DNA of 64,000 nt from Luteibacter yeojuensis (GTDB taxonomy: Bacteria > Pseudomonadota > Gammaproteobacteria > Xanthomonadales > Rhodanobacteraceae): the NCBI RefSeq assembly GCF_000964085.1, contig NZ_JZRB01000025.1, positions 62,001 to 126,000 of the forward strand, given 5' to 3'. Below, one piece after another: positions 9,952 through 58,498 of this stretch. A program made the translations under genes and the position numbers. Each line of letters opens with the position of its first letter. The stretch's first letter is position 1. The notes beneath the pieces are model-generated. The model was given only the letters and a program-made list of their open reading frames with translations, was not told the DNA's origin and ran no database searches.

Positions 9952-10197
9952 ATGGACGCTCGGGACTTCGGCAACACCGTGACTCTCTACCTCCCGCAAG
10001 GCGCGGGTGGCGGCCCGCCTTACGCCGTTTTCCAGGACCGCTCGAAAGCCGGTGATTTCCCCACCCGGGACGAGGCATTGCGCTTCGCCGTCTCGCTCGC
10101 GGTGACCATCCGCGACAGCAAGGGCGTCAATGTCCGCATGCGGATCGAAGACGAGGCTGGCGGCTGGGAGACGCGCGATTCCGTCGCAGCGGGGTAG
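9952..10197 (+). CDS. Small hypothetical protein (81 aa)
   Basis: It has a compact alpha/beta pattern: TVTLYLPQG, YAVFQDRSKAGDFPTRDEALRFAVSLAVTIRD, then NVRMRIEDEAGGWETRDS. This recalls DUF2188-type small proteins in which a strand is followed by F..R.EAL.FA, but I am not certain of the family. Its stop codon abuts the stop of the convergent anti-sigma gene with no gap. Confidence 0.65.
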   Translation: MDARDFGNTVTLYLPQGAGGGPPYAVFQDRSKAGDFPTRDEALRFAVSLAVTIRDSKGVNVRMRIEDEAGGWETRDSVAAG

Positions 10198-10977
10198 TCA
10201 GTCGCCCTGCACCTGTGAATCGAGCAAGTCGCGGAAGCGCGTGAGCTCAGCGCGATCCATGTCCGACACGATGGCGACCGCCTGGCCGCCGAGCATGGCG
10301 CGCTCAAGCACGTAGCCCTGCATTTGTACCGGGCTGCCGTCGCTTGCAACGCCTCCCCCCGGCAGGATGAATACGTCGACGAGGTGCTTGCCATGCTGGT
10401 ACACGAGCACCGGCACGCGGTCGTTGCCCACGTAGTCGATGCGCCCGCCGATGAGGGCGTAGCCTTCCGCCTTGAAGTCGCGCACCACGGGCGCCGTCGC
10501 GACCTTGCCGGCAAACCACGGCTTTACCGTGTGCTGGTCGGTCGACACCACGTCGATCGGCGACGTGGCGGCGAGCGCACGCCAATGGCTGGCAAAGAGA
10601 TCGCGGGTTTGCTGCGCCTCCACGGCCGATGCCGACGACGCGCGCTGCCATGCGGCCAGCGCCGCGCCGCCAGCGACAAACGCGAGCAGCAACGATGCCG
10701 CCATGGCCATCCACGGGCGCAGGGCGACGCGAAACTGACGCGCTTCCGGGGTGGGCATCCCGGCGGCGCTCGCGATCACGCGAGCCCTCAAGGCCCCGGG
10801 CGCGTCGAATCGAGGCGCTTCGTGACGTAGCGCCTGCCGCAGTGCGTCCAGCGCGACCAACGCGTCGCGGCAAGCCGGGCAGGCGTCCACATGCGCCTCG
10901 AATCCACGGCTGGTGGCGCGGTCGAGCTCGCCGTCGAAATACAACGGCAACAGGTCGGAGGCGGTCTTACAGTCCAT
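10198..10977 (-). CDS. Anti-sigma factor, membrane-anchored with zinc-finger N-terminus
   Basis: This 259-aa inner-membrane protein carries an N-terminal zinc-binding anti-sigma domain (MDCKTASDLLPLYFDGEL and the H-x3-C-x2-C motif in HVDACPACRD). One transmembrane helix follows near residue 95 (AMAASLLLAFVAGGAALAA), then a periplasmic domain. It should hold the ECF sigma factor encoded just upstream until a periplasmic signal arrives. The start ATG at 10977 overlaps the end of the sigma gene by 11 bases, which supports translational coupling. Confidence 0.9.
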   Translation of the reverse strand: MDCKTASDLLPLYFDGELDRATSRGFEAHVDACPACRDALVALDALRQALRHEAPRFDAPGALRARVIASAAGMPTPEARQFRVALRPWMAMAASLLLAFVAGGAALAAWQRASSASAVEAQQTRDLFASHWRALAATSPIDVVSTDQHTVKPWFAGKVATAPVVRDFKAEGYALIGGRIDYVGNDRVPVLVYQHGKHLVDVFILPGGGVASDGSPVQMQGYVLERAMLGGQAVAIVSDMDRAELTRFRDLLDSQVQGD

Positions 10978-11518
10978 GCGGAGGCTCCGTCGGGCCGTTA
11001 TCGGTCAATGCCTTGTGCAGGAGCGTGCGGCCGCGCGCGAGGCGCGACATCACGGTGCCGATCGGCGTTTCCAGTACATCAGCGATTTCGCGGTACGAGA
11101 GCTCTTCGATCTCGCGCAGTACGAGAACCTCGCGGTACACGTCCGGCAACCCGCGCAGGTACTGCGCGACAAGGCTCCGCCGCTGCTCGCTGTCGAGGCT
11201 ATCGCCAACATCGTCGTCGCCTTGCGGCATGGCCCGTTCCGCGGCCGCGGGGTTGCCATCGATGGCGACGTTCTTCTTCTCCTTGTGGCGCACCGCCAGC
11301 CGCGCCAGGCAACAATTGCGCACGATGGCGAGGAACCACGCCCGGGCGTTGCCCCCGGCGTAGGTGTCGCACGCGCGCGCCGCGCGGAGGTACGCATCGT
11401 GCACCGCGTCGGAGGCGTCCTGCTCGTTGCCGAGCAACCAGCGGCCGAGGTTGTACGCGGCATCGAGGTGGCGAAGCGCCAACTCGTCCACGACCGCCCG
11501 GTTACTCGTCGATATCAT
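10967..11518 (-). CDS. ECF-family RNA polymerase sigma factor
   Basis: This 183-aa extracytoplasmic-function sigma factor has region 2 (HLDAAYNLGRWLLGNEQDASDAVHDAYLRA) and region 4 (LPDVYREVLVLREIEELSYREIADVLETPIGTVMSRLARGR). The ATG at 11518 overlaps the cytochrome b561 stop codon as ATGA. The order cytochrome b561, sigma, anti-sigma suggests one transcription unit. In several proteobacteria such a set also contains a catalase-related peroxidase (SrpA-like), which is absent here. Candidate targets are oxidative-stress genes, possibly including the nearby katE; that is inference. Confidence 0.9.
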   Translation of the reverse strand: MISTSNRAVVDELALRHLDAAYNLGRWLLGNEQDASDAVHDAYLRAARACDTYAGGNARAWFLAIVRNCCLARLAVRHKEKKNVAIDGNPAAAERAMPQGDDDVGDSLDSEQRRSLVAQYLRGLPDVYREVLVLREIEELSYREIADVLETPIGTVMSRLARGRTLLHKALTDNGPTEPPHGL

Positions 11519-12087
11519 GCGCGCAACATACGCCGTATCAGGCCGTCGCGGTCGATGAACTGATGTTTCAGGGCGGCGCCCAGGTGGCCCACGACGAGGA
11601 TGCACAGCACCCACACGAGGCTCACGTGCAGGGTATCGGTGAGAAGGCGCAGGGGCTCGTCCTTGCCGATCAGCACCGGGAGGTTGCCCAGGCCGAAGAA
11701 GCTAACGGGGTGGCCGCCCGCCATGCGGTGCAGGTAACCGGTGAGCGGCACGGCCAGCATCAGCACCTAAAGCACCCAGTGCAGGCCATGGGCCAGGTGC
11801 TGCTGCCAGGACGGGATGTGCGCCGGAAGCGGCGGCGGCCGGTGCGTGGCGCGCCAGAACAGCCGGAACACGGCCAGCCCGAAGATAAGGCTGCCGAACG
11901 ACGCGTGGTAGAACAGCACCTCGTCGTGGCCCGGCGCTTTCTTCGGGAAGGTTTCCATGAAGAACCCAAGGCCGATATTGAGGAGGATAAGCAGCGCGAT
12001 CAGCCAGTGGATGGCGGCGGCGACCTTGGTATAGGCGGTGGGCTGCACGAGGGGAGCGGAACGGAGCGCCTGGGCAGGCATGGACAT
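11515..12087 (-). pseudogene. Cytochrome b561 family gene interrupted by an in-frame amber codon
   Basis: The first part from ATG 12087 encodes a typical di-haem cytochrome b561 N-half (AAIHWLIALLILLNIGLGFF and a second helix with His). It ends at LHWVL, followed by TAG at 11769-11767. Translation then continues in the same frame with VLMLAVPLTGYLHRMAGGHPVSFFG and the last helix with conserved His (VSLVWVLCILVVGHLGAALKHQ). Relatives usually have an aromatic residue, often Tyr, at the stop position, so a single base change explains the break. Reading frame, helix content and the ATGA overlap with the sigma gene are otherwise intact. Alternatives are a sequencing error or a very recent nonsense mutation. 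Restart at the GTG after the stop could make only the C-half. Confidence 0.85.
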
Positions 12088-12169
12088 GGCGGTGGCCTCG
12101 GGTTGGCGGCACCGGGAGGGTGCCCACGCCATCCAAGATCGTCGGCGCCCCGGTTTTATTCCCTGGCAT

Positions 12170-12206
12170 AAAAAAACCGGCAGCCGCTGTGTGGGCGGGC
12201 TGCCGG
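12170..12206 (-). terminator. Rho-independent terminator of katE
   Basis: Read on the minus strand, a 9-bp stem CCGGCAGCC / GGCTGCCGG encloses a 12-base loop and is followed by seven T residues. It lies 30 bases past the katE stop, so it separates katE from the b561-sigma-anti-sigma unit. Confidence 0.9.
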
Positions 12207-12235
12207 GATGCCCTGGGAGGGGCGGAAACCAACCC

Positions 12236-14317
12236 TCAGGGGAGCGTCCGCACGCGGGGCTCGCGATCGAAATAGCGCCCCTTCGCGCCTTCGATGAACG
12301 CCTTGGTATCGGTAGCGGCGATGACGCCATCGTCCGGATCCAGTCCCGTCACCTCGAACAACGCCTGCCCGCCGGCATCCAGCGCGATCGCTTTCAGGTG
12401 GCCGAAGGCATCCCGCAGGAAGTCGATCGCGGCCGCTTCGTCGCGCAGCTGCCCGGCACCATCGGCGCTGAGCACGACGGCCACGGCATCGAAGTTGATG
12501 GACGGCGTGCCGGCCAGTTGCCCGTCGGCGACGAGCTTCTTGCCATCCGACAGCTTCGCACCACCCACTTTCGGTGCCACGACCTTCACCGTCGCGCCCG
12601 CCGCTTCGGCCGCTTTGCGCACGGACGCCACGGTTTTCGCATCGGAACCGTCATTCACGAGGATCCCCACCACACGCCCTTGCAGCGTGCGCTTCATCTT
12701 GCCGATGATCTGCAGGGCCGGCGACGGCGGCATGTCGAGCACGGGCGCCTTCGCCTTCGGAGCCGGGGGCAGCTTGTCGAGGGCGAGGCCGGCCGCTACC
12801 CGCTTGGCCAGGTCATCGTCGATGTGGCGCAGGTGGCCGACGACGGCCTCGCGCACGTGCAGCGTCTCAACCTTGGAAAGCTCGAACACCAGCGCCAGTG
12901 CGATGTGCGCCTGCTCGTGCGTGGTCTGGCTGGTGTAGAAGAGCCGCGCCTGGCTGTAGTGGTCGGCGAACGTCTCGGAGCGGATCCGGCCGCGCTCGCC
13001 CGCCTCTTCGGCCGGGAAAGAGCGGAAACCGCGAGAGGCGTCTTCCCGGGGCGCATCGTCCTGCAGCGAACTCGGCCCATACGCCACCCGGCCCTTGGGC
13101 ACCTGCTGCTGCATGTGGCCATCGCGCTGGTGGTTCGCGAATGGGCACTTCGGCGCATTGATTGGCAGCTGGTGGAAGTTGGGTGAACCAAGACGCGAGA
13201 GCTGCGTGTCCAGATAGGAGAACAGCCGGCCCTGCAGCAGCGGGTCGTTGCTGAAATCGATGCCCGGTACCAGGTGCGACGGACAGAACGCGACCTGCTC
13301 CGTCTCGGCGAAGAAGTTGTCGGGCCAGCGATCAAGCACCATGCGGCCGATGATCTTCAGCGGCACCAGTTCTTCGGGGATGAGCTTGGTGGCATCGAGG
13401 TGGTCGAACGGGAATTTGGCGGCCTGCTCCTCCGTGAAGAGCTGGACGCCCAGCTCCCACTCGGGGAAGTTGCCGGCCTGGATCGACTCGAACAGGTCAC
13501 GGCGATGGAAGTCCGGGTCCGCGCCCGCGAGCTTCACCGCTTCATCCCACACCGTGGATTGCAGGCCCAGTTTCGGCCGCCAGTGGAACTTCACGAAGGT
13601 GCTCTTGCCCGACGCATTTACCAGGCGGAACGAATGCACGCCGAAGCCTTCGATCATGCGCAGCGAGCGCGGGATGGCACGGTCGGACATGGCCCACATG
13701 ATCATGTGGAAGGCTTCCGGCGTCAGCGAGATGAAATCCCAGAACGTGTCGTGGGCACTGGCCGCCTGGGGAAACCCGCGATCGGGCTCCATTTTCACGG
13801 CGTGCACCAGGTCCGGGAACTTCATGGCGTCCTGGATGAAGAACACCGGAATATTGTTCCCCACGAGGTCCCAGTTACCTTCCTTCGTGTAGAGCTTCAC
13901 GGCGAAGCCGCGGACATCGCGTGGGGTATCCACCGAGCCCGCGCCACCGGCGACGGTCGAAAACCGCGTGAACACCGGCGTCTTTTCGCCCACCTCGGTC
14001 AGGATCCGCGCCGTGGTGTAGTTCTTCAACGACGCCGTGAGTTCGAAGAAGCCGTGCGCCGCGGAGCCGCGCGCATGGACGATGCGCTCGGGGATGCGCT
14101 CATGGTCGAAGTGCGTGATCTTCTCGCGGAGGATGAAGTCTTCCAGCAGCGTGGGGCCGCGCTGGCCAACGCGCAACGAGTTCTGGTCATCGCTTATCGG
14201 CGTGCCCTGGTCCGTCGTCATGGGCGGGTGCGACCCGCCGGCGAGCTGGTGGAGTTCGTCGCCGTTACCGCGCTCTTCTTTCGCGGCTTTGGACGGGCTT
14301 TTCGCTTTGCTGACCAT
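12236..14317 (-). CDS. katE: Large-subunit monofunctional catalase HPII
   Basis: KatE dismutes hydrogen peroxide in the cytosol. The 693-aa length matches large-subunit clade-2 catalases. The haem-pocket region is [20 protein letters not shown] (with the essential His), followed by [25 protein letters not shown]. The proximal region has [22 protein letters not shown]. The extra C-terminal flavodoxin-like domain is seen in [12 protein letters not shown]...[10 protein letters not shown]. The N-terminal extension is Lys/Ser-rich, as in HPII enzymes. The start ATG is at 14317. The gene is divergent from the UvrA paralogue. Confidence 0.96.
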
Positions 14318-14425
14318 GGCGCACCTCGGCTGGGATCAGCTTCCGACCTTGCGTGAGGTGGTGTATACATCGCGTGCGCAGCCTGCATGCGGCACTGGCA
14401 CGATCCGTGCCGCATAATTGGTCTC

Positions 14426-16942
14426 ATGGCCAAAGAAACCGATGCGTTCGTCCACGTACGTGGCGCGCGCGAACACAATCTCAAGAACGTCGACGTGCGT
14501 ATCCCGCGTGATGCACTTGTCGTCTTTTCCGGCATATCCGGCTCGGGAAAATCGTCGCTTGCCTTCGGCACCCTCTATGCCGAGGCGCAGCGCCGGTATC
14601 TCGAGTCCGTGGCGCCGTACGCACGCCGGCTCATCGACCAGGTCGGCGTTCCAGACGTGGACAATATCGAAGGGCTGCCACCGGCCGTAGCGCTGCAGCA
14701 GCAACGCGGTACGCCTGGCACGCGCTCGTCGGTGGGCAGTGTCACGACGCTATCGAGCATGGCACGCATGCTGTACTCCCGCGCGGGCACGTACCCGGCG
14801 GGGCAACCCATGCTCTACGCCGAAGATTTCTCGCCCAACACACCGCAGGGCGCCTGCCCGCATTGCCACGGCCTGGGTCATGTGTACGAGGTGACGGAGA
14901 AGACGATGGTGCCGGACCCTTCGCTCACCATCCGCGAACGCGCCATCGCGTCGTGGCCGCCCGCGTGGCATGGGCAGAACCTTCGCGACATCCTTGTCAC
15001 GCTCGGCTACGACGTGGATATCCCCTGGCGCGACCTGCCGAAGAAGCAACGCGACTGGATCCTCTTCACTGAGGAACAGCCCGTCGCACCGGTGTATGCC
15101 GGCTTTACGCCCGCAGAAACCCGCGCGGCACTGAAGCGCAAGGCCGAGCCAAGCTACATGGGGACGTACATGGGCGCGCGCCGGTACGTGTTGCATACCT
15201 TCACCACCACGCAAAGCACGGTGATGAAGAAGCGGGTGTCCCGCTACATGGTCGGCAGCACATGTCCGGTGTGCGATGGAAAGCGGCTGAAGAAGGCCTC
15301 GTTGTCGGTGACTTTCGCGAGCCTCGACATCGGTGAACTGTCCGCCCTGTCGTTCGACCGGATGGCCGGGGTGCTAGCACCCGTGGCCGAGGGCAAGCAC
15401 GGGCGGGGCTCGCCGAAGCTTTCCGAGGAGAAACGCCTCGTGGCCCAGCGTATCGCCCAGGACATGCTGGTACGGATCGAAACGCTACGGACCCTCGGCC
15501 TGGGCTACCTCTCCATGGACCGCTCGAGCCCCACGCTATCTCCTGGCGAACTCCAGCGCCTTCGCCTGGCCACGCAGATCCGTTCCAACCTGTTTGGCGT
15601 GGTCTATGTGCTGGATGAGCCCTCCGCCGGGCTACACCCCGCCGACGGCGAGGCCTTGATGGCGGCGCTTGGGCAGCTCAAGGAAGCCGGCAACTCCATC
15701 TTCGTGGTGGAGCACGACCTCGACATGATGCGGCGTGCCGACTGGCTCGTCGACGTAGGCCCGGGTGCGGGCGAGCGCGGCGGCGAAGTGCTCTACAGCG
15801 GGCCACCGAAGGGTCTTCAGCATGTAGCTGGCTCGCATACCGCGCGGTACCTCTTCGCGAAGGAACGCGTGGCTAAGCGAGAGCCCCGCAGGCCCACCGG
15901 CTGGCTCGAGCTGCGCGGCATCACGCGCAACAACCTCCACGGGCTCGATGCGGCCTTTCCCTTGGGCGCCTTCACAGCCGTCACCGGCATCTCGGGCTCG
16001 GGCAAGTCCAGCCTCGTCAGCCAGGCGCTTGTCGAACTGCTCGGCGAACACCTTGGCCACGACATGCCAGCGGGCACGGACGAGAGCGACGAGGGCCCGA
16101 CGATCGCCACGCGGACGGGTGGGCGCATCCACCGCGGCGCCGACGCCATTACCCGCCTTGTGCAAGTGGACCAAAAACCCATTGGCCGCACGCCCCGGTC
16201 GAACCTCGCAACCTATACCGGCCTGTTCGACCACGTACGCAAGCTGTTCGCCGCGACGAAGGCCGCAAAGGCGAAGCGCTACGACCCTGGCCGTTTTTCG
16301 TTCAACGTCGCCAAGGGCCGCTGCGAAACCTGCGAAGGCGAAGGCTTCGTCAGCGTCGAGCTGTTGTTCATGCCGAGCGTCTATGCACCCTGCCCTACCT
16401 GCCATGGCGCGCGCTATAACGAGCAGACGCTCAAGGTAGCGTGGAACGGAAAGAATATCGCGGAAGTCCTCGGCCTCACTGTTGACGAAGCATGCGAGTT
16501 TTTCGCGGACGAACCCGCCGTCGCCAAACCGCTACACCTGCTGCGCGATATCGGGCTGGGCTATCTCCGGCTTGGGCAACCCGCCACCGAGCTTTCCGGT
16601 GGCGAGGCACAGCGCATCAAGCTCGCCACGGAGCTGCAGCGGCCCCAGCGCGGCAACACCCTCTACGTCCTCGATGAACCCACCACCGGCCTGCACCCCG
16701 CTGACGTCGAGAAGCTCATGGCGCAGCTGCAGGGCCTCGTGGATGCGGGCAACACCGTGATCACGGTCGAGCACGAGATGCGTGTTGTCGCCGGGAGTGA
16801 TTGGGTGATTGATGTGGGACCCGGCGCAGGCGAGGACGGCGGCCGGATCATCGCCAGTGGGCCGCCCGCGGAAGTCGCACGCGCGGAAGGCAGCTTGACG
16901 GCCAAGTACCTGAAGCGGCTGCTTATTCCACCGCACGACTAA
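14426..16942 (+). CDS. UvrA-like ABC ATPase (UvrA2 type, without UvrB-binding domain)
   Basis: This 838-aa protein has the two tandem ABC ATPase modules of excinuclease UvrA. The first Walker A is [25 protein letters not shown], and signature 1 is [15 protein letters not shown] with [11 protein letters not shown]. The second Walker A is [12 protein letters not shown], and signature 2 is [13 protein letters not shown] with [11 protein letters not shown]. Zinc-module cysteines are present ([31 protein letters not shown]). The segment that in canonical UvrA carries the UvrB-binding domain is missing: the chain passes from the [12 protein letters not shown] region almost directly to CPHC. It is thus a UvrA2/drug-resistance type paralogue rather than the repair-essential uvrA. 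The ATG at 14426 precedes the conserved [11 protein letters not shown]. Confidence 0.92.
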
Positions 16943-38678: not shown

Positions 38679-40214
38679 ATGCGCCACCTGGTCGTGGTCC
38701 TTGGCGATCAACTCAATCTTGATTCGCATGCGTTCGACGACTTCGACGAGGCGGCGGACTGCGTGTGGATGGCCGAGCGGCTGGGTGAGTCGACGCATGT
38801 GTGGTCGACCAAGGCGCGCAGCGCGCTGTTCATCGCCGCCATGCGGCACTTCGCCAGTGAACTGCGGCAGCGCTTTCCCCTGCTCTACACACGGCTGGAT
38901 GACCACGGGCCGGGTGACCTGGTCGAACACCTCGCGGCCGCGCTGGACGAACACACGCCCGAACGCCTCGTCATCGTGCGGCCCGGGGAACACCGGCTCA
39001 GGGCCGGCATCCAGGCGGCTTGCAAGGCACGCGGCGTGCAGTACGTGGAACGGCCGGACAGGCATTTCCTCTGTGCCACGGCGGACTTCCACGAGTGGGC
39101 CAGGGGCAAGACGCAGCTGCGCATGGAGCACTTCTACCGGTGGATGCGGCAACGCCACGGCATCCTGCTGGACGGCGGCAAGCCGGTCGGCGGCCGCTGG
39201 AACTTCGACGCGGAGAACCGCGGGCACTTCGGCCGCGAAGGCCCGGGCTGGGTGCCGCGGCCCATCGGCTTCGAGCCCGACGAGCTGACGGCGTCGGCGC
39301 TTGCCGACGTGGCCAGGGCGCTTGCCGACCACCCCGGCGAGCTCACGGGCTTCGACTGGCCGGTAACCCGCGATGCCGCCCTGCAGGCGCTCGACGATTT
39401 CATGGAACACCGCCTGGCGGCGTTCGGCCAGTGGCAGGACGCCATGTGGACCGGCGAGCCCTACCTCTTCCACGCGCGCGTTTCCGCCTGCATGAACCTG
39501 CGGCTGCTCGATCCGCGCGAAGTCATCGATGCCGCGCTGGCACGGTACGACCAGGGCAAGGTGGGCCTGCCCGCCGTCGAAGGCTTCGTGCGCCAGATCC
39601 TGGGCTGGCGGGAATACGTGCGCGGCGTGTACTGGCTCGCGCCCGAGCGCCTGCTGGCCAGCAACGCGCTGCGCGCCCACGCGCCCCTGCCCTGGTTCTA
39701 CTGGACGGGCGATACCGACATGACCTGCCTGCGCGAGACGGTGACGCAGACGCTGCAGACGGGTTACGCGCACCACATCCAGCGGCTGATGGTGACGGGC
39801 AATTTCGCGCTGTTGCTAGGCGTGGAACCGAAACAGATCCACGAGTGGTACCTGGCCGTCTACGTCGACGCCGTGGAATGGGTGGAGGCGCCCAATACGC
39901 TGGGCATGAGCCAGTTTGCCGACGGTGGCCGCATGGTATCCAAGCCCTACGCCGCGTCCGGGCGCTACATCGAGCGGATGAGCAACTACTGCCAGGGTTG
40001 CCGGTTCGACCCGGGCGAAGCGCTGGGGCCCACGGCGTGCCCCTTCACCACGCTGTACTGGGATTTCCTCGACCGGCACCGCACGCGGTTCTGGAACCAC
40101 CCGCGCGCTGCCATGCAGTGGCGATCGCTCGACCGCCTGCCCGAAGGCAAGCTCGGCAAGATCCGCGCGCAAGCGCGGGAGCTCCGCGATACCCTCTCGT
40201 CATCAACCGACTGA
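38679..40214 (+). CDS. Iron-sulfur bacterial cryptochrome/(6-4) photolyase (FeS-BCP, PhrB-like)
   Basis: This light-dependent DNA-repair flavoprotein is about 511 aa. The N-terminus is the antenna domain (HLVVVLGDQLNLDSHAFDDFDEAADCVWMAE). The helical FAD-binding domain follows with VEGFVRQILGWREYVRGVYW. Four Cys expected to bind a 4Fe-4S cluster are visible: one in DMTCLRET, and three in CQGC followed twelve residues later by TAC. This matches the spacing of PhrB-type (6-4) photolyases. GGAG lies eight bases ahead of ATG 38679. The gene ends 12 bases inside the end of the convergent helicase gene, exactly where base composition drops. Confidence 0.93.
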   Translation: MRHLVVVLGDQLNLDSHAFDDFDEAADCVWMAERLGESTHVWSTKARSALFIAAMRHFASELRQRFPLLYTRLDDHGPGDLVEHLAAALDEHTPERLVIVRPGEHRLRAGIQAACKARGVQYVERPDRHFLCATADFHEWARGKTQLRMEHFYRWMRQRHGILLDGGKPVGGRWNFDAENRGHFGREGPGWVPRPIGFEPDELTASALADVARALADHPGELTGFDWPVTRDAALQALDDFMEHRLAAFGQWQDAMWTGEPYLFHARVSACMNLRLLDPREVIDAALARYDQGKVGLPAVEGFVRQILGWREYVRGVYWLAPERLLASNALRAHAPLPWFYWTGDTDMTCLRETVTQTLQTGYAHHIQRLMVTGNFALLLGVEPKQIHEWYLAVYVDAVEWVEAPNTLGMSQFADGGRMVSKPYAASGRYIERMSNYCQGCRFDPGEALGPTACPFTTLYWDFLDRHRTRFWNHPRAAMQWRSLDRLPEGKLGKIRAQARELRDTLSSSTD

Positions 40215-42818
40215 ATCCGGTCGCGTGGGCGAAAAGTTAGGAACGGCAGCTTGAATTTCCGCCTGGATCGCTTTCTCTGAGTCCGTGAGGCCCGGCTCGT
40301 TCGCAAACACCCTTCCGTACAGCTGTGCGTAGAAGTCGGCCTGCCGATCCCGCAAGACCTGGACATGATGTTCATCGTAGGTACCTGAGAAGATTACCGG
40401 GTGGATCTCGATTCTTGGCGGCTCGCCGCCCTTCTCATTATCGTCCAGCCATTCACGCATTTTTTGTTCCCAGAGCGATCCTACGCGGTCCACCCTGCCA
40501 ATCTGCTGTTCAACGACGCCAGGGTTCCACTCAGGATGCATCAGGACAACGCAGCGACATGCGCGATGCAGATTCAGGCCCTCTCGGCCAACAACCGATT
40601 GCGACACTAGAACACGCGGGAAGCTATTGGGCCGGTTGAAGGCCAGCTGCAGCAGTCGGCGTGTGGACTGACCGGTCGCGCCATACATTAAGCGCGCAAA
40701 CTTTCCAGTGGGTGCTGCCAGTTCGTCTTCCAGATACTGCTCGACTTCGCTCCAGGTACGATCGTTGCGGCGTTCTGAATCTTCATCCGAAACCGCTTCG
40801 TCCTTGGTTATAAATCGATCCTGGTCAATGCAGGCATTGATAAGCTCATCAAATGCACCCGCCCAGTCGGCCGTTTGTCCCAGACCAGCCTCGTCACCTA
40901 CATGCTCGCAGAGCGCGCGCGTAAGCTTCGCAACGGAAGCCGATGAGCCGCTTTTGCCCAAAGATCGGTGCAAGCCCTCAAGCGCCGCCCTTGATACAGG
41001 ACGTAACTCATGTGCCGTTGAAATCAACCAATCAACCAGATGCTCACGAATGAGCTGGCGCGCGCCCTCCCCTTTTTCATAGTTACGCCGCAATCGCTCA
41101 TCAAGTTCTGCCAGATCCACATCAGGAATTTCTCCCGCCTCTGCCAATTGACTATATGCCACCCTGACCGCGGGCCAGTCCGAGTGCTCGAGACCACCAT
41201 CGTGACGACCATGGACGGCTTCCTGGGGCCAGTGCGCGCCGTGTTGAACCCGACGCAAAAGCTCCCGGGCGTTCAAAAGAACGGTCAGCGCGCGCAGCGG
41301 CCTGACAAATCGACCGAACACGAGCACCTTCTCCCCCCTAAGGGTGTGCCGTTCGACGACCTCAACAACCGCCTTGATCCTCGGATGTTGCAATAATATT
41401 GTGTCGGAATCTTCTGTCACGCGAGAGACGCCACCCAGAACCTGAATCCACCAGTTCGCGCGCGCCACCTTCGCCTCGTTCTCTTTTTTTACATGGGACG
41501 GCAAGTTCGACACGTCGCCATCGTCCTTCGCAGACGACCAAAGAACGTCAAGCGACGTCATCGCCCCATGGCCGCTCGCCATGGTCAACCTATGGCGCAA
41601 AAGGCTCTCGGACCCACCGCCCTTACCAACCACGCTCAGTGCCTCAGACGCGCATATCGCAGCCTTCCATTCATGCGAAAGACTGGGCGTATCAACGAAG
41701 ACACACTCTTCCTGTCGATAGTGGCTGGAACCGCCGGTTCGATCCACGAATTTCTGGATGTACGGATCCTCACCCTTGTCTCGCCTTAACACGTACTTTC
41801 CAAGCGCGCTCTGATAGGTGCGAGCCGCGTCAGCGAAACGCGCCCGACACTCGTCACTGGCACGCCATGTCGTCCTGAGGCGGTCACAGGCAAGTTTGTA
41901 GGCCTCAATGGCGCGAGTGATGGGATCGATGACCTCGGCTCTTAGTCCGATCCGTGCCAGCGAGCCAGCCCACTGCACATGCGAAAGCTCCACGGGAGTC
42001 GCCGTTAGCGCAACTCGCCTTGCCGTCTGCGCCGGCTGGGCGACCAGCCCAGAGCCTTGCAGCTTTGAAAGTCCGCTGTCATCACCTCGGTCCTTATGCG
42101 CTTCATCAATGATGATTAGCTCAAACTCGCCCATGCCCAAAGACAGGCTAGGAAAAAGAACTGCCTCAAGTTCGCCTTTTTCCTTGGGATTTCGAATTGA
42201 TGCTTTCTTGTAGTCTCCGGCAAGGCGCGAAAGCAAGCTGCGCCCATGACCTTTCCGGTCCAAGACGTGCAAAAGAATGTCTATCGCCGCGCATCGCGTA
42301 GCCTCATCCACTGGGGTCCTACGTCTTGGAGCCTCTCCATGACGTCGCTGCCACTCAATCATGAGCTCACGATGCAAATTTTGCCCCAGCGGGCCGCCAT
42401 TGTTAGGCCTTCGGAAGTTCGCAAATCTGTGGGATATGAGGACGATGGGTTCGTCATACCAAGGCTTGACTGACGATGCGCGACCAGGGCTCCACGCCGC
42501 CATGTAAGACGTCAGTCCACGGATGAGGTCAGGAGTCTGAACTCCAGCCTGCCTGAACTCATCCTTCCACTGATATCCAAGGCCTGGAGGTACCAGCACC
42601 GCGACCCTGCCACCTGCCTGGATCACTGCCTTAGCCAGCTCCACGGCGACACGCGTCTTACCCATGCCAACCTCATCTGCGATGAGCACGCCGTGGTCTG
42701 GCAGGCGAGCGGCGATACCCACCAGCGTGGCGCGCTGCCCGGCATTCAATCGCTCATCGCCGGCACCAGCCGCTGCACCTCCAAGCGCCTTCGAGACATC
42801 AAGCCAGCTAGAGAGCAT
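40203..42818 (-). CDS. SNF2-type DEAH helicase, component of a candidate defence operon
   Basis: An 871-aa SF2 ATPase. Motif I is ADEVGMGKTRVAVEL (residues 48-62), followed by motif Ia AVLVPPGLGYQWKDEF. Motif II is IIIDEAHKD (Asp238-His241), motif III is ALTATP. The C-terminal lobe includes VLVFGRFVRPL, SQSVVGREGLNLHRACRCVVLMHPEWNPGVVEQQIGRVDRVGS (motifs V and VI, ~745-781). This resembles RapA/SNF2-like translocases found in DISARM, Dpd and similar antiphage systems. Codon use is clearly less GC-rich than the flanks. The ATG at 42818 overlaps the PLD gene by 11 bases. It is the last gene of a three-gene operon. No methyltransferase is encoded with it. Confidence 0.88.
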   Translation of the reverse strand: MLSSWLDVSKALGGAAAGAGDERLNAGQRATLVGIAARLPDHGVLIADEVGMGKTRVAVELAKAVIQAGGRVAVLVPPGLGYQWKDEFRQAGVQTPDLIRGLTSYMAAWSPGRASSVKPWYDEPIVLISHRFANFRRPNNGGPLGQNLHRELMIEWQRRHGEAPRRRTPVDEATRCAAIDILLHVLDRKGHGRSLLSRLAGDYKKASIRNPKEKGELEAVLFPSLSLGMGEFELIIIDEAHKDRGDDSGLSKLQGSGLVAQPAQTARRVALTATPVELSHVQWAGSLARIGLRAEVIDPITRAIEAYKLACDRLRTTWRASDECRARFADAARTYQSALGKYVLRRDKGEDPYIQKFVDRTGGSSHYRQEECVFVDTPSLSHEWKAAICASEALSVVGKGGGSESLLRHRLTMASGHGAMTSLDVLWSSAKDDGDVSNLPSHVKKENEAKVARANWWIQVLGGVSRVTEDSDTILLQHPRIKAVVEVVERHTLRGEKVLVFGRFVRPLRALTVLLNARELLRRVQHGAHWPQEAVHGRHDGGLEHSDWPAVRVAYSQLAEAGEIPDVDLAELDERLRRNYEKGEGARQLIREHLVDWLISTAHELRPVSRAALEGLHRSLGKSGSSASVAKLTRALCEHVGDEAGLGQTADWAGAFDELINACIDQDRFITKDEAVSDEDSERRNDRTWSEVEQYLEDELAAPTGKFARLMYGATGQSTRRLLQLAFNRPNSFPRVLVSQSVVGREGLNLHRACRCVVLMHPEWNPGVVEQQIGRVDRVGSLWEQKMREWLDDNEKGGEPPRIEIHPVIFSGTYDEHHVQVLRDRQADFYAQLYGRVFANEPGLTDSEKAIQAEIQAAVPNFSPTRPDSVG

Positions 42819-44781
42819 TCGTGTCGGCCTCTATAGAAGGAAGCCCGGACAAGCCCCACGCCTGTTCCACCTCGCTCAGCATCGCCTCGTAAATCTTGTT
42901 GGAGCCTGGCTCCCACGAATGCTCGGGCCGGAACGGCGACTGACGCAACGGACTCAAGACATTGATACCAAGCATCTTGCAATAGACAGCAACATTGGTA
43001 CCTCGTGCTTGTAATAAAGCCGTCCCGAGGCGCACGCACCACCCGGGCCATTCAGCAGAACTCAGCGCGCATTGGCGCTCGGCGATACTCTCAACAAGGA
43101 CCATCGCCTGCCGGATCGGATAGCTCGCTGATGTTGCGGGAGACGGCGTGGTTGCGTTTCCGCCGACGTCATTCCCGACCCACGGATCTGGCGACGGATC
43201 GTCGACAATCCATCCAGCGGGGAATAGCTCAATCTGCGAAAGTACGTCCTCGATCTCCATTCGTCCCAATGGCACCGCGGCAATGCGCCCTTTTTCGTCT
43301 ACCACGGGAATAAGCGCAGTACGGCTGCCGGCCCAGACCACGCAGACTTCGCGTGGAAGGGATCCATGCCAAAGAAACCTTCCATGAGACGCTTCGATGA
43401 TTAACCCGGCGTCTGACCGAACGTGAAAATACTGATCGCATGTACCTTGAGGAGTCAGCCAGCAATCACCTGACGGGGAAATCTGCTCACTCGTAAAGAT
43501 GGATACCGGCGCCGCGATGAACGCATCTGGCTTTTCCTCCATTGGGTCGCCTCCAGCGACATCCTCTGGGCTGAGCTCATGACCTGAAAGTGGATCAAAC
43601 GGCAGCGCTTCCTTGATATCGCGCCAAATCATGCCCTCGATGCCAACAATAACGCCTGCTTCCAGATTCCCGCTCGCCCCGGCTGGACTCAGGAACCCGG
43701 GTTTCGTAAGGTTCCCGGAGCCAAGGTATAACCACGCATGCTTACAGGAACTGTTGCCCCGCTTATCCTTGTCATTCCACATTGCACTGAAAATAAACTT
43801 ACCATGGAGGGACGCAATCGGATTCTCGCCGAGATGAGCGGGAGAAACAGCCGGGACAATCTTCCAGCCCTTGGCCTGGATCGCGGCCGCGCTGGTTGCC
43901 ACGCTCTGGCAAGCCTCGGGAGAAACGACGATCGCAACGTTGGCGCGCGGAGTCAAATGGCCGGCATTAGAGAGATTGGCAACGATTTTCTCCAGAACGC
44001 CAGGCACCCGATCACTGACTGTACCTGACTCAAAGAATCCCGAGCCGAGTGCAATATAGTTGCGACGCTTGCCACCGAAGCGCCCCACTCTCGCGGCGAG
44101 CTGACTGACTAGCGCCTTACTTTGATTATCAATGAACTTTCGGGGTCGTGCGGGAGCACCATCCCGTACCGAAGCGAGTAGTTCCTTCGCGTACATTGAT
44201 TCGACGTGAGACAAAGTTGGCGTATCTTTGCCAAGATCGCCCAAGGCACCTTGATCGAACAGCGGCAACAACTGTTCTATAAATCTCCATGCCGCCGCGA
44301 CATCAGCCGCGTCGCCCTGCGATCGCAGGCTTGCCGAGCTGTCCACGGTGCCAATCCACGCAAGATCAAGGCTCGATGTGAGGGTCTGGAGTGTCCAGTT
44401 GCCTGTGCTGACGACAAGCCGCACCTCCCAGCTGGCCAAACCGGTTGTCGAGCGAAAGACCAGCAAGGCCAACTTCGCGTGTAATAAGCGAAAGCTTCGA
44501 CGAGCCGACGGAAGCATTGGCATATGGAGCAGCCCCGGCGCCGCGGTAGACGGGACTTGCGCTGCACTAGGGTCGAGCATCGCCGCAAGGACCACCTGCC
44601 CAGACGCTGCTCTCTGTGCATCCGTGGCGCCAGAGAACGCCTCCGCAGCGAGGTTAAGGAACGCTGCATCCGCCGAGTATCCGCACAGCCAGCCAAAAAC
44701 ACCTCTGAAGCCGTCACGCGGAGCGAAGCACTCGACCAAGGATCGCTCGATTCGACCGTCACGCCCCGGCTTAGCTGGCAT
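42808..44781 (-). CDS. Tdp1/phospholipase D-like protein, component of a candidate defence operon
   Basis: A 657-aa protein with two HKD-type half-sites in the Tdp1 style. The first has His101-x-Lys103 (LLHAKLALLVF) with Asn128 in VVSTGNWTLQT. The second has His326-x-Lys328 (SLHGKFIFSAM) with Asn357 in YLGSGNLTKPGF. The Asp of canonical PLD HxKxxxxD is missing in both, as in Tdp1. It may be a nuclease or a DNA-end-processing phosphodiesterase. The ~250 C-terminal residues are not recognised. I prefer ATG 44781, which overlaps the upstream gene by 11 bases. A TTG at 44808 would add nine residues. Lower GC than flanks suggests transfer. Confidence 0.8.
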   Translation of the reverse strand: MPAKPGRDGRIERSLVECFAPRDGFRGVFGWLCGYSADAAFLNLAAEAFSGATDAQRAASGQVVLAAMLDPSAAQVPSTAAPGLLHMPMLPSARRSFRLLHAKLALLVFRSTTGLASWEVRLVVSTGNWTLQTLTSSLDLAWIGTVDSSASLRSQGDAADVAAAWRFIEQLLPLFDQGALGDLGKDTPTLSHVESMYAKELLASVRDGAPARPRKFIDNQSKALVSQLAARVGRFGGKRRNYIALGSGFFESGTVSDRVPGVLEKIVANLSNAGHLTPRANVAIVVSPEACQSVATSAAAIQAKGWKIVPAVSPAHLGENPIASLHGKFIFSAMWNDKDKRGNSSCKHAWLYLGSGNLTKPGFLSPAGASGNLEAGVIVGIEGMIWRDIKEALPFDPLSGHELSPEDVAGGDPMEEKPDAFIAAPVSIFTSEQISPSGDCWLTPQGTCDQYFHVRSDAGLIIEASHGRFLWHGSLPREVCVVWAGSRTALIPVVDEKGRIAAVPLGRMEIEDVLSQIELFPAGWIVDDPSPDPWVGNDVGGNATTPSPATSASYPIRQAMVLVESIAERQCALSSAEWPGWCVRLGTALLQARGTNVAVYCKMLGINVLSPLRQSPFRPEHSWEPGSNKIYEAMLSEVEQAWGLSGLPSIEADTNAL

Positions 44782-46075
44782 AGTCGAACATACCCACGTT
44801 GCCACCAAGGTCGTGCCATAAGCTGTAGAGGTTTCCCAAGCGATACGACGCCCCGGCTGGCCATTTTACCCCGTCAGCACGTTGCGCTTCGTCGTTAGAC
44901 CTGTCGCCCTCTGTACCATCGGCCATCGAATTCGCCCCCTGAACGAACGCGTGGCCCGGCACAACATCATTACCTGAAAGTCTAAGTACTCGCCCATCGC
45001 GCATGACGAGCATTCGGATTAAGCTGACATCAGACTCATCGCAACAGTCAAGACAAAACGAACGTGCATCCTCTCGCGTGAACTGCTTATCACGTTCACC
45101 TCCGAGGAAGGCCCGGGCCAGATGCCTGAGGCTGTCGAGATGGCCTTCAAGTCGCTCATCGCCCTGGCTAAGCTTGAGTCGCGCGGTACTGGTGCGCCCG
45201 AGTAAGCTTTCCAAGCAGTTGAGGACGGCTATGGCCGAGTCGCGCACCTGGGTAAAGGCGGCGCCCTCAGACAAATCGAGCCAGTGGTCCCTGGCAAGCA
45301 TGGCGGGCGGCCTTTCCCAGCTGATTCTGGAACCCTCGTTCAGTGTCTTCATCCACTCCAGTGCTTCCAGCCTACGCACCGAGCCATGCACGCCGTCCGG
45401 AGCACGCAAGCGATTAATCAGCTGGAGACGACACTCCTTCGGAAGCCTAACGTCGGGAGAGAGCGCCTGGCGTGCGGTGCTTGAACCGAGGTTAAGCGAT
45501 TCACCTTTGACCCAACGCATGAGATAAGCGTCAAGAAGGACTTTCGATGGCCTATAGCTCGAATAGAAAGCGGCGAGTAAGCACGCACCCGCTTCAGAAA
45601 CAGTGAAGCTGTTGAACCGATCGTTTCTCGCATTCACAAGGCCCAGGGATACCAAGGGCTGTATGGTTTGCTGTCGCATGGTTTGAGATACGTAATACCC
45701 TGGGGCTGCGACGGTCTTAAAGGCTTCACTTCCAGCGCCGTGGCGCTTCAGCTTTTGGCTACCTCGAAGCATTGGGTGCGCAACCCACCTGCGATGCGCA
45801 AGCGCCACTTTGCAGCCAATGGCCTCAATGGCGTTCGCCACGACGATGGGCTGCGAGCCACTTCGCTCCGCTAGATCGATCCCGACGAGGGCAAGCACGA
45901 GCGGCTTACCAAACCAGATGCCTCCAAGGCCGGGAACGGCCAATTCATTGTAAGCCCGTACGGTCGCGCCTAGCCCAAGCGTACGCGTACGAATGGTTCT
46001 CCCAACAGCGTGCGGACGCAATAAAAACCACCCGCGAGAACCGAATTCCTCGGTATAGGCAACGCCATCTGCCAT
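44771..46075 (-). CDS. Protein of unknown function, first gene of the candidate defence operon
   Basis: A 434-aa protein I do not recognise. The N-terminal ~130 residues are alpha/beta. Residues ~115-185 look like a winged helix (QQTIQPLVSLGLVNARNDRFNSFTVSEAGACLLAAFY). A long helical middle follows. Near the end is SFCLDCCDESDVSLIRMLVMRDGRVLRLSGNDVVPGHAF, whose Cys-x2-CysCys cluster could bind metal. There is no signal peptide or membrane helix. It could be the sensor or specificity subunit for the downstream PLD and helicase. The start ATG at 46075 is chosen over a TTG four codons upstream. The gene is AT-richer than the flanking chromosome. Confidence 0.75.
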   Translation of the reverse strand: MADGVAYTEEFGSRGWFLLRPHAVGRTIRTRTLGLGATVRAYNELAVPGLGGIWFGKPLVLALVGIDLAERSGSQPIVVANAIEAIGCKVALAHRRWVAHPMLRGSQKLKRHGAGSEAFKTVAAPGYYVSQTMRQQTIQPLVSLGLVNARNDRFNSFTVSEAGACLLAAFYSSYRPSKVLLDAYLMRWVKGESLNLGSSTARQALSPDVRLPKECRLQLINRLRAPDGVHGSVRRLEALEWMKTLNEGSRISWERPPAMLARDHWLDLSEGAAFTQVRDSAIAVLNCLESLLGRTSTARLKLSQGDERLEGHLDSLRHLARAFLGGERDKQFTREDARSFCLDCCDESDVSLIRMLVMRDGRVLRLSGNDVVPGHAFVQGANSMADGTEGDRSNDEAQRADGVKWPAGASYRLGNLYSLWHDLGGNVGMFDYAS

Positions 46076-54341: not shown

Positions 54342-54431
54342 TGGCGGAGGGGGTGGGATTCGAACCCACGGTAGGCTTACACCTACGGCAGTTTTCAAGA
54401 CTGCTGCCTTAAACCACTCGGCCATCCCTCC
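54342..54431 (-). tRNA. tRNA-Ser(UGA), copy 1
   Basis: The 90-base gene includes the encoded CCA (54342-54344). The anticodon loop CTTGAAA carries TGA between GCAGT/ACTGC stems. The long variable arm typical of tRNA-Ser (CGTAGGTGTAAGCCTACC) and the TTCGAAT loop are present. The acceptor stem is GGAGGGA / CCCCTCC, leaving an A7-C66 mismatch not found in copy 2. Confidence 0.97.
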
Positions 54432-54479
54432 GTGTTTTACCGCGCCGTGAATGCGCCCCGGGATTGACCCGGCGCGGAG

Positions 54480-54485
54480 ATTGTA
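54480..54485 (-). promoter_or_regulatory. -10 element of tRNA-Ser copy 1
   Basis: TACAAT on the minus strand, followed by a GC-rich discriminator (CTCCGCGCCGGG), lies about 49 bases ahead of the tRNA 5' end. It is identical in the second copy. No good -35 hexamer is evident. Confidence 0.55.
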
Positions 54486-54500
54486 CCTGAATGGGTTGCT

Positions 54501-54788: not shown

Positions 54789-55421
54789 ATGATGCGTGCT
54801 GCCTTTGCCGTGACCGGTCTGGTGATGGCGTGCGCCGCGCCAGCTTCTGACATAAGCGTGCCCACCGCCGCTAGCGACGCCACCACGTCTCACCCTTCGA
54901 CTACCCTGGAACGCCCAATGACCTCCTCCCTTGAAGGCCATGCGCTGCCCGGCGCGCGTGCGGCCGTGGATCACCTGCTTGCTTTCCTGTCGACCCTGCA
55001 TAGCACTGCCACGCTCAAACCCGAACCTCTTGGGCAGGCCTTCGGAGTCCAACTTGGCCCCGATAGCACCAATGGGGCTGGCTGGACGGTCTATCACAGT
55101 CCGGACCTTGGCCGAGGCTGGACGTACTGGCTTCAGCAGTCTGATGCCCGGCCATCGATAAAGAACGGTTTCCGTTTTTGGTTCGACCATGCGGACCGGG
55201 CCGCCGATGCCACCCCAGTCTGTGCACTGCCCTTGGACCGGCTGCGCAGCACGCTGACCACGCATGGCTGGGTCGAGCGGCCAGTACCCTCGGAAATCGG
55301 CAGCATCCTGGCTGTCGAGTTCAGCAAGAACGACGTGGTGCTGACACTTACCCCGCGCGACGGAACCGACATTGGCGGCACCGCGTGCGTGCTGGCCATC
55401 CAGACCACCGACGGTCACTGA
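54789..55421 (+). CDS. Putative immunity lipoprotein (X-Tfi) for the adjacent T4SS effector
   Basis: A 210-aa protein with an N-terminal lipoprotein signal (MMRAAFAVTGLVMACAAPAS, lipobox Cys15), so it is periplasmic and membrane-anchored. The mature domain (ALGQAFG-like GQAFGVQLGPDS, GWTYWLQQSDARPS, FRFWFDHADRAADATPVCALPLDRLRSTL) is not a known enzyme. Its position 17 bases upstream of an XVIPCD effector is the standard layout for X-Tfi/X-Tfe pairs, in which the immunity protein neutralises the effector in the periplasm. The start is ATG 54789 or 54792. Assignment rests on context. Confidence 0.75.
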   Translation: MMRAAFAVTGLVMACAAPASDISVPTAASDATTSHPSTTLERPMTSSLEGHALPGARAAVDHLLAFLSTLHSTATLKPEPLGQAFGVQLGPDSTNGAGWTVYHSPDLGRGWTYWLQQSDARPSIKNGFRFWFDHADRAADATPVCALPLDRLRSTLTTHGWVERPVPSEIGSILAVEFSKNDVVLTLTPRDGTDIGGTACVLAIQTTDGH

Positions 55422-55438
55422 AGAACGAAGGACTGCCC

Positions 55439-57235
55439 ATGGCGACGCCTCACCCGGCCCTCGACGCGGCCGTGCATCAGTTTGCCCAACAGCCGGGCGT
55501 AACCCCCGCGGACGTCGCAGCGTTGCAAGTGGCCCTCGCATCCGACCCCGATGTGACCCGACGTTTGGACGGCGCAGCTGCGTCCGGAGCCCTGCATGGG
55601 TTCTCTCCCACGGCCCCCGGCACTAAGGACGCGCCCATTGGCTTCTACGACCGCGCGGCCGGCACGCTGACACTTCCAGCGGCAGCCTTCCCCACGAGTG
55701 GCTCTGCTCCAATGGCTGACTTGCACGCCGTGCTACGCGTACAAGCGATGGTCGTGGAGTTCGGCGCCAAGAGCTACAGGGACGCCGCCGGTGCGACACA
55801 CCCCGTCTCGCAGGACATGCTTAATAATCTTCAAGGCACGCTCAACGGCTCGCCGGTCCTTGCCGACGACATCAAGCGCGCAGCGACCATGGCGGACCCA
55901 CTACAACCCTCGCACCGCATCCTGGAGTCGTTTGCGTTCACCGCACCAGGCGCTGGCGTGGGTGGCAGCTTCAACGCGCCAGGCCACGCCATGAATCTGG
56001 TGAGCGAGTCGCTCATCACGCGTGGATCGCAAGGCGCCGGCTCCTACAATCCCCACGACTTGACCTTCGTCATCGGCCACGAAGTCCAACACGGGTTCAA
56101 CGCGCACGTCGCCGCGCAGGCGCGTACAGCGTTCGTGACCGATGTGCGCGCGCTGGCGGCCACCCGGGGGCCCGTGCACGATTACACTGCTTTAGTGGAG
56201 CGGTACATTCAGTCCGGTCGCGACGATGAAGCAGGTGCAGAAATAGCGGGATGGAATGCGCTGCGCAGCCGGGTCCAACACGATCAGGGACACGTCTCGC
56301 TGACGGACATGGCCAATGTGCTGCCCGCGCGCACTGCAGACTTTATTGAGCCGCATGGAGCAGGCTTCGTGGCTCACGCCAACCTCAAGCTCAACCCCGA
56401 TTTGAGCTTGGCGCAGACGCCGGCCAATGTGGCGGCTATGGGACATAACTATTTTGACCGTCCCACAGCCACGCACCGTCAACCAGGGGACACGCGCAAC
56501 ACCATGGCCTTAGGCCACGGCGGGGTGCAGGATTATCCAAACTACTACGCCGGCTGGGCCGTGGCGACCATCGGTGCGGAAGAGCGTGTGGCTGCACACG
56601 GCCGGGGTCCGGCTCCGCAGATCCAGCTCAACATGACGCACGCGGGGCTATATGAGGACATGATGGAGAAGGCCGGCCTGAATCTGGCGCCCTCCAAGCG
56701 GTCCATCCCCTACCTTGACAGCAGCGCTCAGCCGGCGGTGCCACACACGTTCGACCATACCGCCGACGGACCGCACCAGTACCAGCATGTACCGGTGGCG
56801 CCGCAACGTCTGGACGATCCTGCGCACCCGGACCACGCTCTGTATCAACAAGTCCGCGGGCACGTCGTGGCGCTGGATAAGAGTCTCGGTCGCACTCCCG
56901 ATGTGCACACTGACCAGTTGGCGTCGGCCACCGTTATTCAAGCCCGGGCTGATGGACTACAGCGCATCGATCAGATTGCGCTGTCCACCGATGGTCAGCG
57001 ACTGTGGGCGGTACAAACACCGCCTGGGCGCACGGACCACCTGTTTGACTTACGGACCAGTGTTCCCACGGCTGAGGCCATGACACCGATGGACCAGAGT
57101 GGCGCCCAGTGGCCGCAGGCCATGCAGCAGTTTGAGCAGCATCAGGCGCAACAACAGCAACAAACGCAGAGCCAGCAACTCAACGCACAGCAGGCGCAAG
57201 GGCCGGTCATAACGCATGGCGGGCATGGCATGTAG
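55439..57235 (+). CDS. Type IV secretion antibacterial effector: zinc metallopeptidase with XVIPCD (X-Tfe)
   Basis: A 598-aa protein. The N-terminal part contains a metallopeptidase site FVIGHEVQHGFNAH (His214, Glu215, His218), with a downstream acidic block DDEAGAEIAGWNAL that may supply the third ligand. Residues ~456-598 match the Xanthomonas VirD4-interacting-protein conserved domain: LDDPAHPDHALYQQV, then ADGLQRIDQIALSTDGQRLWAVQ, then a Gln-rich tail (HQAQQQQQTQSQQ). XVIPCD proteins are delivered by the X-T4SS into rival bacteria. GAAGGA lies before ATG 55439. No T4SS genes lie in the window. It might target cell-wall peptides, since several X-Tfes do, but that is unproven. Confidence 0.9.
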   Translation: MATPHPALDAAVHQFAQQPGVTPADVAALQVALASDPDVTRRLDGAAASGALHGFSPTAPGTKDAPIGFYDRAAGTLTLPAAAFPTSGSAPMADLHAVLRVQAMVVEFGAKSYRDAAGATHPVSQDMLNNLQGTLNGSPVLADDIKRAATMADPLQPSHRILESFAFTAPGAGVGGSFNAPGHAMNLVSESLITRGSQGAGSYNPHDLTFVIGHEVQHGFNAHVAAQARTAFVTDVRALAATRGPVHDYTALVERYIQSGRDDEAGAEIAGWNALRSRVQHDQGHVSLTDMANVLPARTADFIEPHGAGFVAHANLKLNPDLSLAQTPANVAAMGHNYFDRPTATHRQPGDTRNTMALGHGGVQDYPNYYAGWAVATIGAEERVAAHGRGPAPQIQLNMTHAGLYEDMMEKAGLNLAPSKRSIPYLDSSAQPAVPHTFDHTADGPHQYQHVPVAPQRLDDPAHPDHALYQQVRGHVVALDKSLGRTPDVHTDQLASATVIQARADGLQRIDQIALSTDGQRLWAVQTPPGRTDHLFDLRTSVPTAEAMTPMDQSGAQWPQAMQQFEQHQAQQQQQTQSQQLNAQQAQGPVITHGGHGM

Positions 57236-57245
57236 CTGGAGACGG

Positions 57246-57335
57246 TGGCGGAGAGAGTGGGATTCGAACCCACGGTAGGCTTACACCTACGGCAGTTTTC
57301 AAGACTGCTGCCTTAAACCACTCGGCCATCTCTCC
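57246..57335 (-). tRNA. tRNA-Ser(UGA), copy 2
   Basis: The same structure as copy 1: anticodon TGA, long variable arm and encoded CCA at 57246-57248. The acceptor stem GGAGAGA / TCTCTCC is fully paired. Only three bases differ from copy 1, so this appears to be the ancestral form. Confidence 0.97.
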
Positions 57336-57383
57336 GTGTTCTTCTGCGCCCTAGAAGCGCCCCGGGGTTGCCCCGGCGCGGCG

Positions 57384-57389
57384 ATTGTA
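57384..57389 (-). promoter_or_regulatory. -10 element of tRNA-Ser copy 2
   Basis: TACAAT on the minus strand with a GC-rich discriminator (CGCCGCGCCGGG), at the same distance from the tRNA as in copy 1. Confidence 0.55.
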
Positions 57390-57438
57390 CCTGAATGCAT
57401 TGCTGATCGCGCCCTCCAGTATCGCTCGCTCGGCCATA

Positions 57439-57780: not shown

Positions 57781-58030
57781 GATCTCAATTCCCGGGGCGC
57801 GGCACACCAATCTGCGAAAGCTTAGCTTGGCGAAGATGAGGGGATGCAGATCTCCGGTCCTCCGCTACGCCTAGACACACTAAGCGCGAACTGAACTTGA
57901 CCCGGCATCCCGTGACGGAGTCAGGGACACTTCCAGGAACGAGTCATTTTCACCAAGCCGAGGGCATGACTGCGATAAAGAAGCCCCTCGCCCCCCTTTC
58001 TCTTGTGTGGACATCGAATGAGATTTGGCT

Positions 58031-58408
58031 TCACTTCATCCCAAAACTAAGCCAGTCCGGCTTCCCGATTGGACCAACGGCATGCTTGACCAATTCGAAC
58101 TCCAGCAAGCGATTGTTCTTGTCTAAATAGATAGCCATATCCATGTCGGTACCATCTGAATCCTTGACGGTTCCTTCTAAAGGAAAGTGATCTTTGCCAC
58201 GGAAGGCGTCTTGCCCACGGTACGGTGGACGCTGATAACCATCAATGTGGAAGACGACACGTGATCCATCGGGTGACGCCTCTTCGACGAAGCAATGCTC
58301 TAAGTCGGACATGAGCTGTTCGCGTTCATCATCCTTTCCAACCGCATTGGCCAAAGCAAAAAGCGCTTTCCTTTCCAGCTCTGTAAGTCGACGCATATCG
58401 ATCATCAC
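58031..58408 (-). CDS. DUF6984-like small protein
   Basis: A 125-aa protein starting with RRLTELERKALFALAN, then DDEREQLMSDLEHCFVEEASPDGSRVVFHI. A C-terminal TDMDMAIYLDKNNRLLEFELVKHAVGP matches the DUF6984 pattern (R.LT..E...L, then AxxxLDxxGxLxELEI). Proteins of this group are often found next to toxin/immunity genes. The ATG at 58408 has AGGTGA ahead of it. No partner toxin is present. Confidence 0.6.
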   Translation of the reverse strand: MMIDMRRLTELERKALFALANAVGKDDEREQLMSDLEHCFVEEASPDGSRVVFHIDGYQRPPYRGQDAFRGKDHFPLEGTVKDSDGTDMDMAIYLDKNNRLLEFELVKHAVGPIGKPDWLSFGMK

Positions 58409-58498
58409 TTCACCTGGAATACCGTGCCAACGTTAACTTGACCGCCAGATAGAGGCAAAGCCCGGTATACGACGTGCATATCGTTAATCACGGGCCGC

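Follow-up and report, generated by a model that had tools for sequence, protein, structure and literature searches.

A cytochrome b561 gene with one in-frame amber codon at the head of an ECF sigma factor operon in Luteibacter yeojuensis

In the window analysed here, a 64,000-nucleotide stretch of the Luteibacter yeojuensis genome, the gene for a cytochrome b561 carries one in-frame amber codon; we favour, with confidence somewhat better than even, the explanation that a nonsense mutation arose very recently, and is now fixed or polymorphic, in the otherwise intact b561 gene of an ECF sigma factor operon. We infer that the mutation is real rather than an error of the sequence. As a broken gene, this b561 is of an ordinary kind, and its ECF setting makes it modestly interesting; it also serves as a warning that a single stop is insufficient for calling amber recoding.

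The interrupted b561 frame and its operon

The features of the frame are the following:

11515..12087, minus strand: cytochrome b561 frame with one internal TAG, 190 codons plus TGA; PF01292 E 8.2e-33 when read through
11770..12087, minus strand: N-terminal part of the frame, 106 codons, with H27 and H61; PF01292 E 1.1e-13
11767..11769, minus strand: amber codon in frame (codon 107), where relatives have Tyr
11515..11766, minus strand: C-terminal part of the frame, 83 codons plus TGA, a separate open reading frame with H154 and H168; PF01292 E 2.1e-13

The coordinates given in an earlier note on this DNA proved correct to the base: on the minus strand, 11515-12087 comprises 190 codons and a terminal TGA, and its one internal TAG is found at 11767-11769, in the context HWVL-TAG-VLML. 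In the profile search, the read-through frame scored 114.1 bits against a PF01292 cut-off of 30.1, and each half by itself was above the cut-off, in agreement with the earlier description of two well conserved halves; the b561 identity and the otherwise intact frame were likewise upheld, by the read-through E-value and by the uninterrupted orthologues of 8 genomes. The frame has the PF01292 score and the four histidines at heme-ligand positions, and it stops being a single polypeptide at codon 107; because of this TAG, it is classed as a broken member of PF01292. The C-terminal part opens with GTG directly 3' of the TAG, with an ATG two codons on, where a ribosome could restart.

As for the rest of the window, a codon-usage scan (33 predicted genes over 44.8 kb) returned the b561 TAG as the only stop flanked on both sides by the required 40 stop-free coding-like codons, and this sole interrupted frame argues weakly against an error-ridden assembly; the scan called zero genes in two lower-G+C stretches, so that parts of the window were weakly tested. 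Genes were lacking from its output between 40214 and 46672 and between 53408 and 60677, and the G+C content was 0.56-0.59 at 40001-46000 and 58001-60000 compared with 0.61-0.72 in the other 2-kb steps; these two low-G+C stretches are possibly acquired DNA. A separate observation regards two tRNA-Ser(TGA) genes on the minus strand, which lie within the copies of a 159-nt direct repeat (54342-54500 and 57246-57404; 91% identity, 2.9 kb apart); between them is a long plus-strand frame (55178-57235) whose true start is unsure and whose Gln-rich tail may be similar to XVIPCD, a domain of type IV secretion effectors in Xanthomonadales.

A screen of the window for more broken genes against 100 kb each of three relatives (G008, G006 and G003) was abandoned, the shared sequence consisting of scattered, rearranged blocks only. 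Protein matches with at least 55% identity numbered 23, 30 and 23 in these genomes, with stops in 14, 13 and 6 of them, respectively; the b561 orthologue was among the stop-containing matches in all three, and most of the others were judged by eye, not individually, to be antisense or shifted-frame matches.

Within its operon, b561 is the first and sole non-regulatory gene, and the features around it are:

10198..10977, minus strand: anti-sigma factor with a zf-HC2 zinc finger, 259 aa; PF13490 E 6e-12
10967..11518, minus strand: ECF-type RNA polymerase sigma factor, 183 aa; PF08281 and PF04542, TIGR02937 above cut-off
12136..12163, minus strand: promoter-like element GGGAATAAA-N14-GATCT upstream of b561, from the alignment of 9 upstream regions
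12170..12206, minus strand: intrinsic-terminator-like hairpin plus T run in the gap between catalase and b561; fold -24.2 kcal/mol, z -3.43
12236..14317, minus strand: long HPII-type catalase upstream of b561; PF00199, PF06628, PF18011

All 8 other carriers have the genes in the same order, b561, sigma, anti-sigma; within the genus, a search for b561 (E up to 1e-60) and one for this sigma factor (E up to 1e-40) pick out the very same 8 of 23 genomes, the own genome included. Regarding the coupling of the two genes, which the earlier note had described as retained, the b561 TGA (11515-11517) does overlap the sigma ATG (11516-11518) as ATGA in the window; the overlap recurs in only one of the 8 orthologues (G008), and in the other seven sigma starts 19 nt or more past the b561 stop (the starts in G001 and G024 being our reading of the sequence). 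The stop may, as that note proposed, lower translation of sigma, although ribosomes could restart at the GTG that follows the TAG. Inspection by eye revealed no clear Shine-Dalgarno sequence upstream of the sigma start or of this GTG.

A wider occurrence of the module was sought at the best 80 of 284 confirmed b561 loci and not seen there: sigma and anti-sigma genes lay near b561 in three of the 80 (L031-L033), and these are the already counted loci of G019, G024 and G006. Among the paper titles listed in literature searches aimed at this operon, none describes it, and no claim of unpublished status is made.

The element GGGAATAAA-N14-GATCT is conserved in all 9 aligned upstream regions. Each of the 8 genus carriers has a single copy of its exact form and the 15 non-carriers have none, an absence that speaks only of close copies, because the pattern was defined on the same sites; the reversed control pattern had no exact copy in the genus genomes scanned. 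With one mismatch allowed, the window genome still had one site and G016 and G019 gained one each, while the reversed control gained one each in G019 and G001. The sigma factor likely drives its own operon and at most a few further promoters of this kind, which would leave b561 as the one conserved non-regulatory product under its control; with the element as the putative promoter, the operon would represent a self-contained, autoregulated ECF circuit. Given such a closed circuit with one effector, as it appears to be, the strain would offer a natural test of a sigma/anti-sigma pair without its cytochrome, if the stop is real. A pattern scan of 10100-14500 returned no sigma-70-type promoters (0.6 expected) and three terminator-like sites, all on the plus strand (2.8 expected); it missed the hairpin at 12170..12206.

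The catalase was considered as a further part of the module and left out of it, because among the 9 genomes compared it directly adjoins b561 only in that of the window; the terminator-like hairpin lies between the two genes, and no catalase match was found in the other 8 b561 loci with 1.5 kb flanks. Against this rejection, a match to the catalase gene with 79% nucleotide identity is present in G008 at some 8 kb from the operon. The own genome has at least two long catalase genes, the second of them on contig C55 (87% identity), and contig C107 carries a 158-aa piece at its edge.

Relatives, selection and the age of the stop

Orthologues of b561 were found in 8 of the 40 related genomes searched besides its own, with 78-84% identity, and the remaining matches had 47% or less; the genus, represented by 22 other genomes, accounts for seven of the eight carriers, and the eighth is G024. 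The alignment to relatives that the earlier note had proposed as a check was run: all eight frames are uninterrupted, as expected if the window copy is a pseudogene, and all have Tyr at codon 107 (TAT in five, TAC in three). That Tyr was the original residue, as had been suggested, is further corroborated by its presence at this position in 101 of 101 wider loci (L010-L110, composed of 21 of the 30 loci from related genomes and the best 80 of 284 confirmed; three of them are the same as orthologues). Only one of these 101 alignments contains a stop, in L042; it is also a TAG, and it probably lies outside the gene because the alignable domain continues from a Met that lies 3' of it. Two distant matches, in G027 (34% identity) and G033 (26%), have one TGA each. 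The own genome encodes two diverged paralogues of b561 (44% and 37% identity), which could buffer the loss.

A second difference, absent from the earlier note, concerns codon 108, which is GTG (Val) in the window versus Ser or Thr (TCG, TCC or ACG) in all eight orthologues. At this position, the 101 wider loci have Leu in 49, Val in 27, Ile in 9, Ala in 7, Ser in 3, Phe in 3, Gly in 2 and Met in 1; because Val is so common among them, this change may be older than the stop and unrelated to it. Across codons 107-108, three neighbouring bases differ between the window and the orthologues, and, together with a site 26 nt upstream, the new sequence makes up a perfect 8-bp inverted repeat, as only 1 of 48 stop-plus-NNG variants does. 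When the criterion is relaxed to 12 complementary positions out of 15, however, 7 of 67 places along the gene and 1 of 32 sense variants reach it as well, and the RNA fold at the stop site is ordinary (z -0.33); a templated origin of the stop was therefore set aside, and only a weak hint of it remains.

Selection was analysed with a codon model written for this analysis and fitted to 9 orthologues; support within their tree ranges from 45 to 99 and is weak in places, and the window genome (G000) has a long branch at synonymous sites. Relaxed selection along this branch was looked for and none was seen: omega for b561 is 0.0647 overall, with 0.0651 on the branch and 0.0646 elsewhere (2dlnL 0.00). 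The part before the stop has 0.114 against 0.086 (2dlnL 0.24) and the part after it 0.048 against 0.030 (2dlnL 0.69), neither difference being significant. As for the regulators, omega is 0.054 against 0.099 for sigma (2dlnL 3.57), in an alignment whose G001 row starts two codons before the Met, a small flaw that leaves b561 unaffected, and 0.084 against 0.113 for anti-sigma (2dlnL 1.02).

When the end of the window genome's branch was made neutral, the cost for the whole gene was 2dlnL 2.9 at a share of 4% and 4.7 at 6%, and neutrality over more than about 5% of the branch fits it poorly; the downstream part alone sets a looser limit, with a cost of 3.8 at 8% and a marginally better fit at 1% than at 0. 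The unchanged omega and the cost of a neutral phase together imply that the stop must be young: if b561 is dead, its death would fall within roughly the last twentieth of the branch, and a pseudogene fits only if very young, the limit being about 5% of the branch when the whole gene is considered and about 8% for the downstream part. Young inactivated genes are ordinary in bacterial genomes, according to Kuo and Ochman (PMC2916853). The change is so either very young, or an error, or masked by a restart at the adjacent GTG.

Suppressed stop, restart or sequence error

The earlier note had rightly offered a recent loss, a suppressed stop and an error as explanations. The second of these, in which a suppressor or near-cognate tRNA reads through the amber codon and yields some full-length protein, is in our judgment very improbable, even though the frame is otherwise intact and under purifying selection, and Belinky et al. 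(PMC7918605) argue for a wide occurrence, among bacteria, of in-frame stops in genes whose dN/dS is below 1. The window stop is a singleton and therefore fails the filter against artefacts described in that work, namely presence in two or more species. The test for an amber suppressor tRNA, also proposed in the earlier note, gave none: the genome has 46 tRNA matches, a list unchanged with the E-value limit raised to 10, and none of them has a CUA anticodon, with ARAGORN assigning an anticodon to every one. Ile-GAT and Ala-TGC are missing among the 46, so that the list is probably short of a few tRNA genes located in assembly gaps. Release factor RF1 (prfA) is present (528.5 bits) and has no internal stop, and TAG terminates 11 of the 33 predicted genes of the window; with no CUA tRNA, an intact RF1 and TAG in ordinary use, recoding is unlikely, and the suppressed stop is not supported.

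Between the other two, a recent loss is favoured, and a sequencing or assembly error that hides an intact gene is a less likely yet serious contender, to which we give perhaps a chance in five. It agrees with the presence of only one discordant codon in a gene that otherwise shows no decay, with a draft genome of 144 contigs, and with the invariance of codon 107 in the compared orthologues and the wider loci; against it, the assembly was scored 100% complete and 0.14% contaminated, no other interrupted frame emerged from the window scan, and codon 108 also differs from the orthologues, though Val is common in the family. Selection does not help here, because a young mutation and a sequence error are inseparable when both predict the same absence of decay. 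Translation in two pieces, with a stop at the TAG and a restart at the GTG or ATG, after which the parts may reassemble and the coupling to sigma is kept, is improbable. The position of the GTG and ATG suits it, as does the low omega of the 83 downstream codons (0.048 on the window genome's branch, background 0.030), which is equally explained by youth; against it, none of the 8 orthologues is split, the L042 stop falls 5' of the domain's Met, a clear Shine-Dalgarno was not seen by eye, and each CybB heme is, we take it, ligated from both sides of the break, as placed by alignment. The boldest form of this idea, in which b561, as the effector of a conserved ECF switch with a promoter of its own, is turning into a two-piece protein whose parts reassemble around the hemes while sigma translation is maintained, is the least probable of all the readings considered. 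The very recent nonsense mutation is thus kept as the preferred explanation in what follows.

Consequences of the break and comparison with known systems

The sole match with a solved structure up to E 0.001 is E. coli CybB (PDB 5OC0, E 4e-11), with whose H13, H45, H137 and H151 the residues H27, H61, H154 and H168 align; H103 and H175 align with CybB H87 and H158, and codon 107 with Tyr91. We take H13, H45 and H137 of CybB to be heme ligands, and each of its hemes presumably has one ligand from either side of the position that matches codon 107. Of the four histidines at heme-ligand positions, two lie beyond the TAG, and the first 106 residues consequently hold only half of these positions. 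In CybB, a superoxide oxidase, the protein is described as having four helices and two hemes, with H151 ligating heme 1 and H87 and H158 as residues of the quinone site (PMC11869295).

By comparison with CybB, translation would end at codon 107, which appears to lie within helix 3; the truncated product would keep two heme-position histidines and lack the other two along with helix 4. With these parts gone, the binding of both hemes and the work as a membrane electron carrier should fail, which points to a probable loss of b561 function.

The window b561 resembles CybB in that its whole read-through frame belongs to PF01292 and its histidine positions align, and it differs from it in being a distant match and in having its copy broken at codon 107. 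It missed the NCBIfam equivalog cut-offs (44.5 versus 170 bits for NF008566, the E. coli-type CybB, and 23.5 versus 121.5 bits); with a match this distant, a chemistry identical to that of CybB is only putative.

As for b561 genes linked to stress, the peroxide-induced genes reported for Burkholderia cenocepacia include the b561 gene BCAL1106, and the list also has catalase and sigma factor genes that lie elsewhere by number, the consecutive BCAL3477 and BCAL3478. LcoA, the lipocalin-associated b561 of the same species, is tied to oxidative and lipid-peroxidation stress (PMC9113575); the terms 'sigma factor' and 'ECF' are absent from the main text of that paper. The two proteins differ in their genetic partners, LcoA being linked to the lipocalin gene bcnA (PMC9113575) and the window b561 to an ECF sigma/anti-sigma pair.
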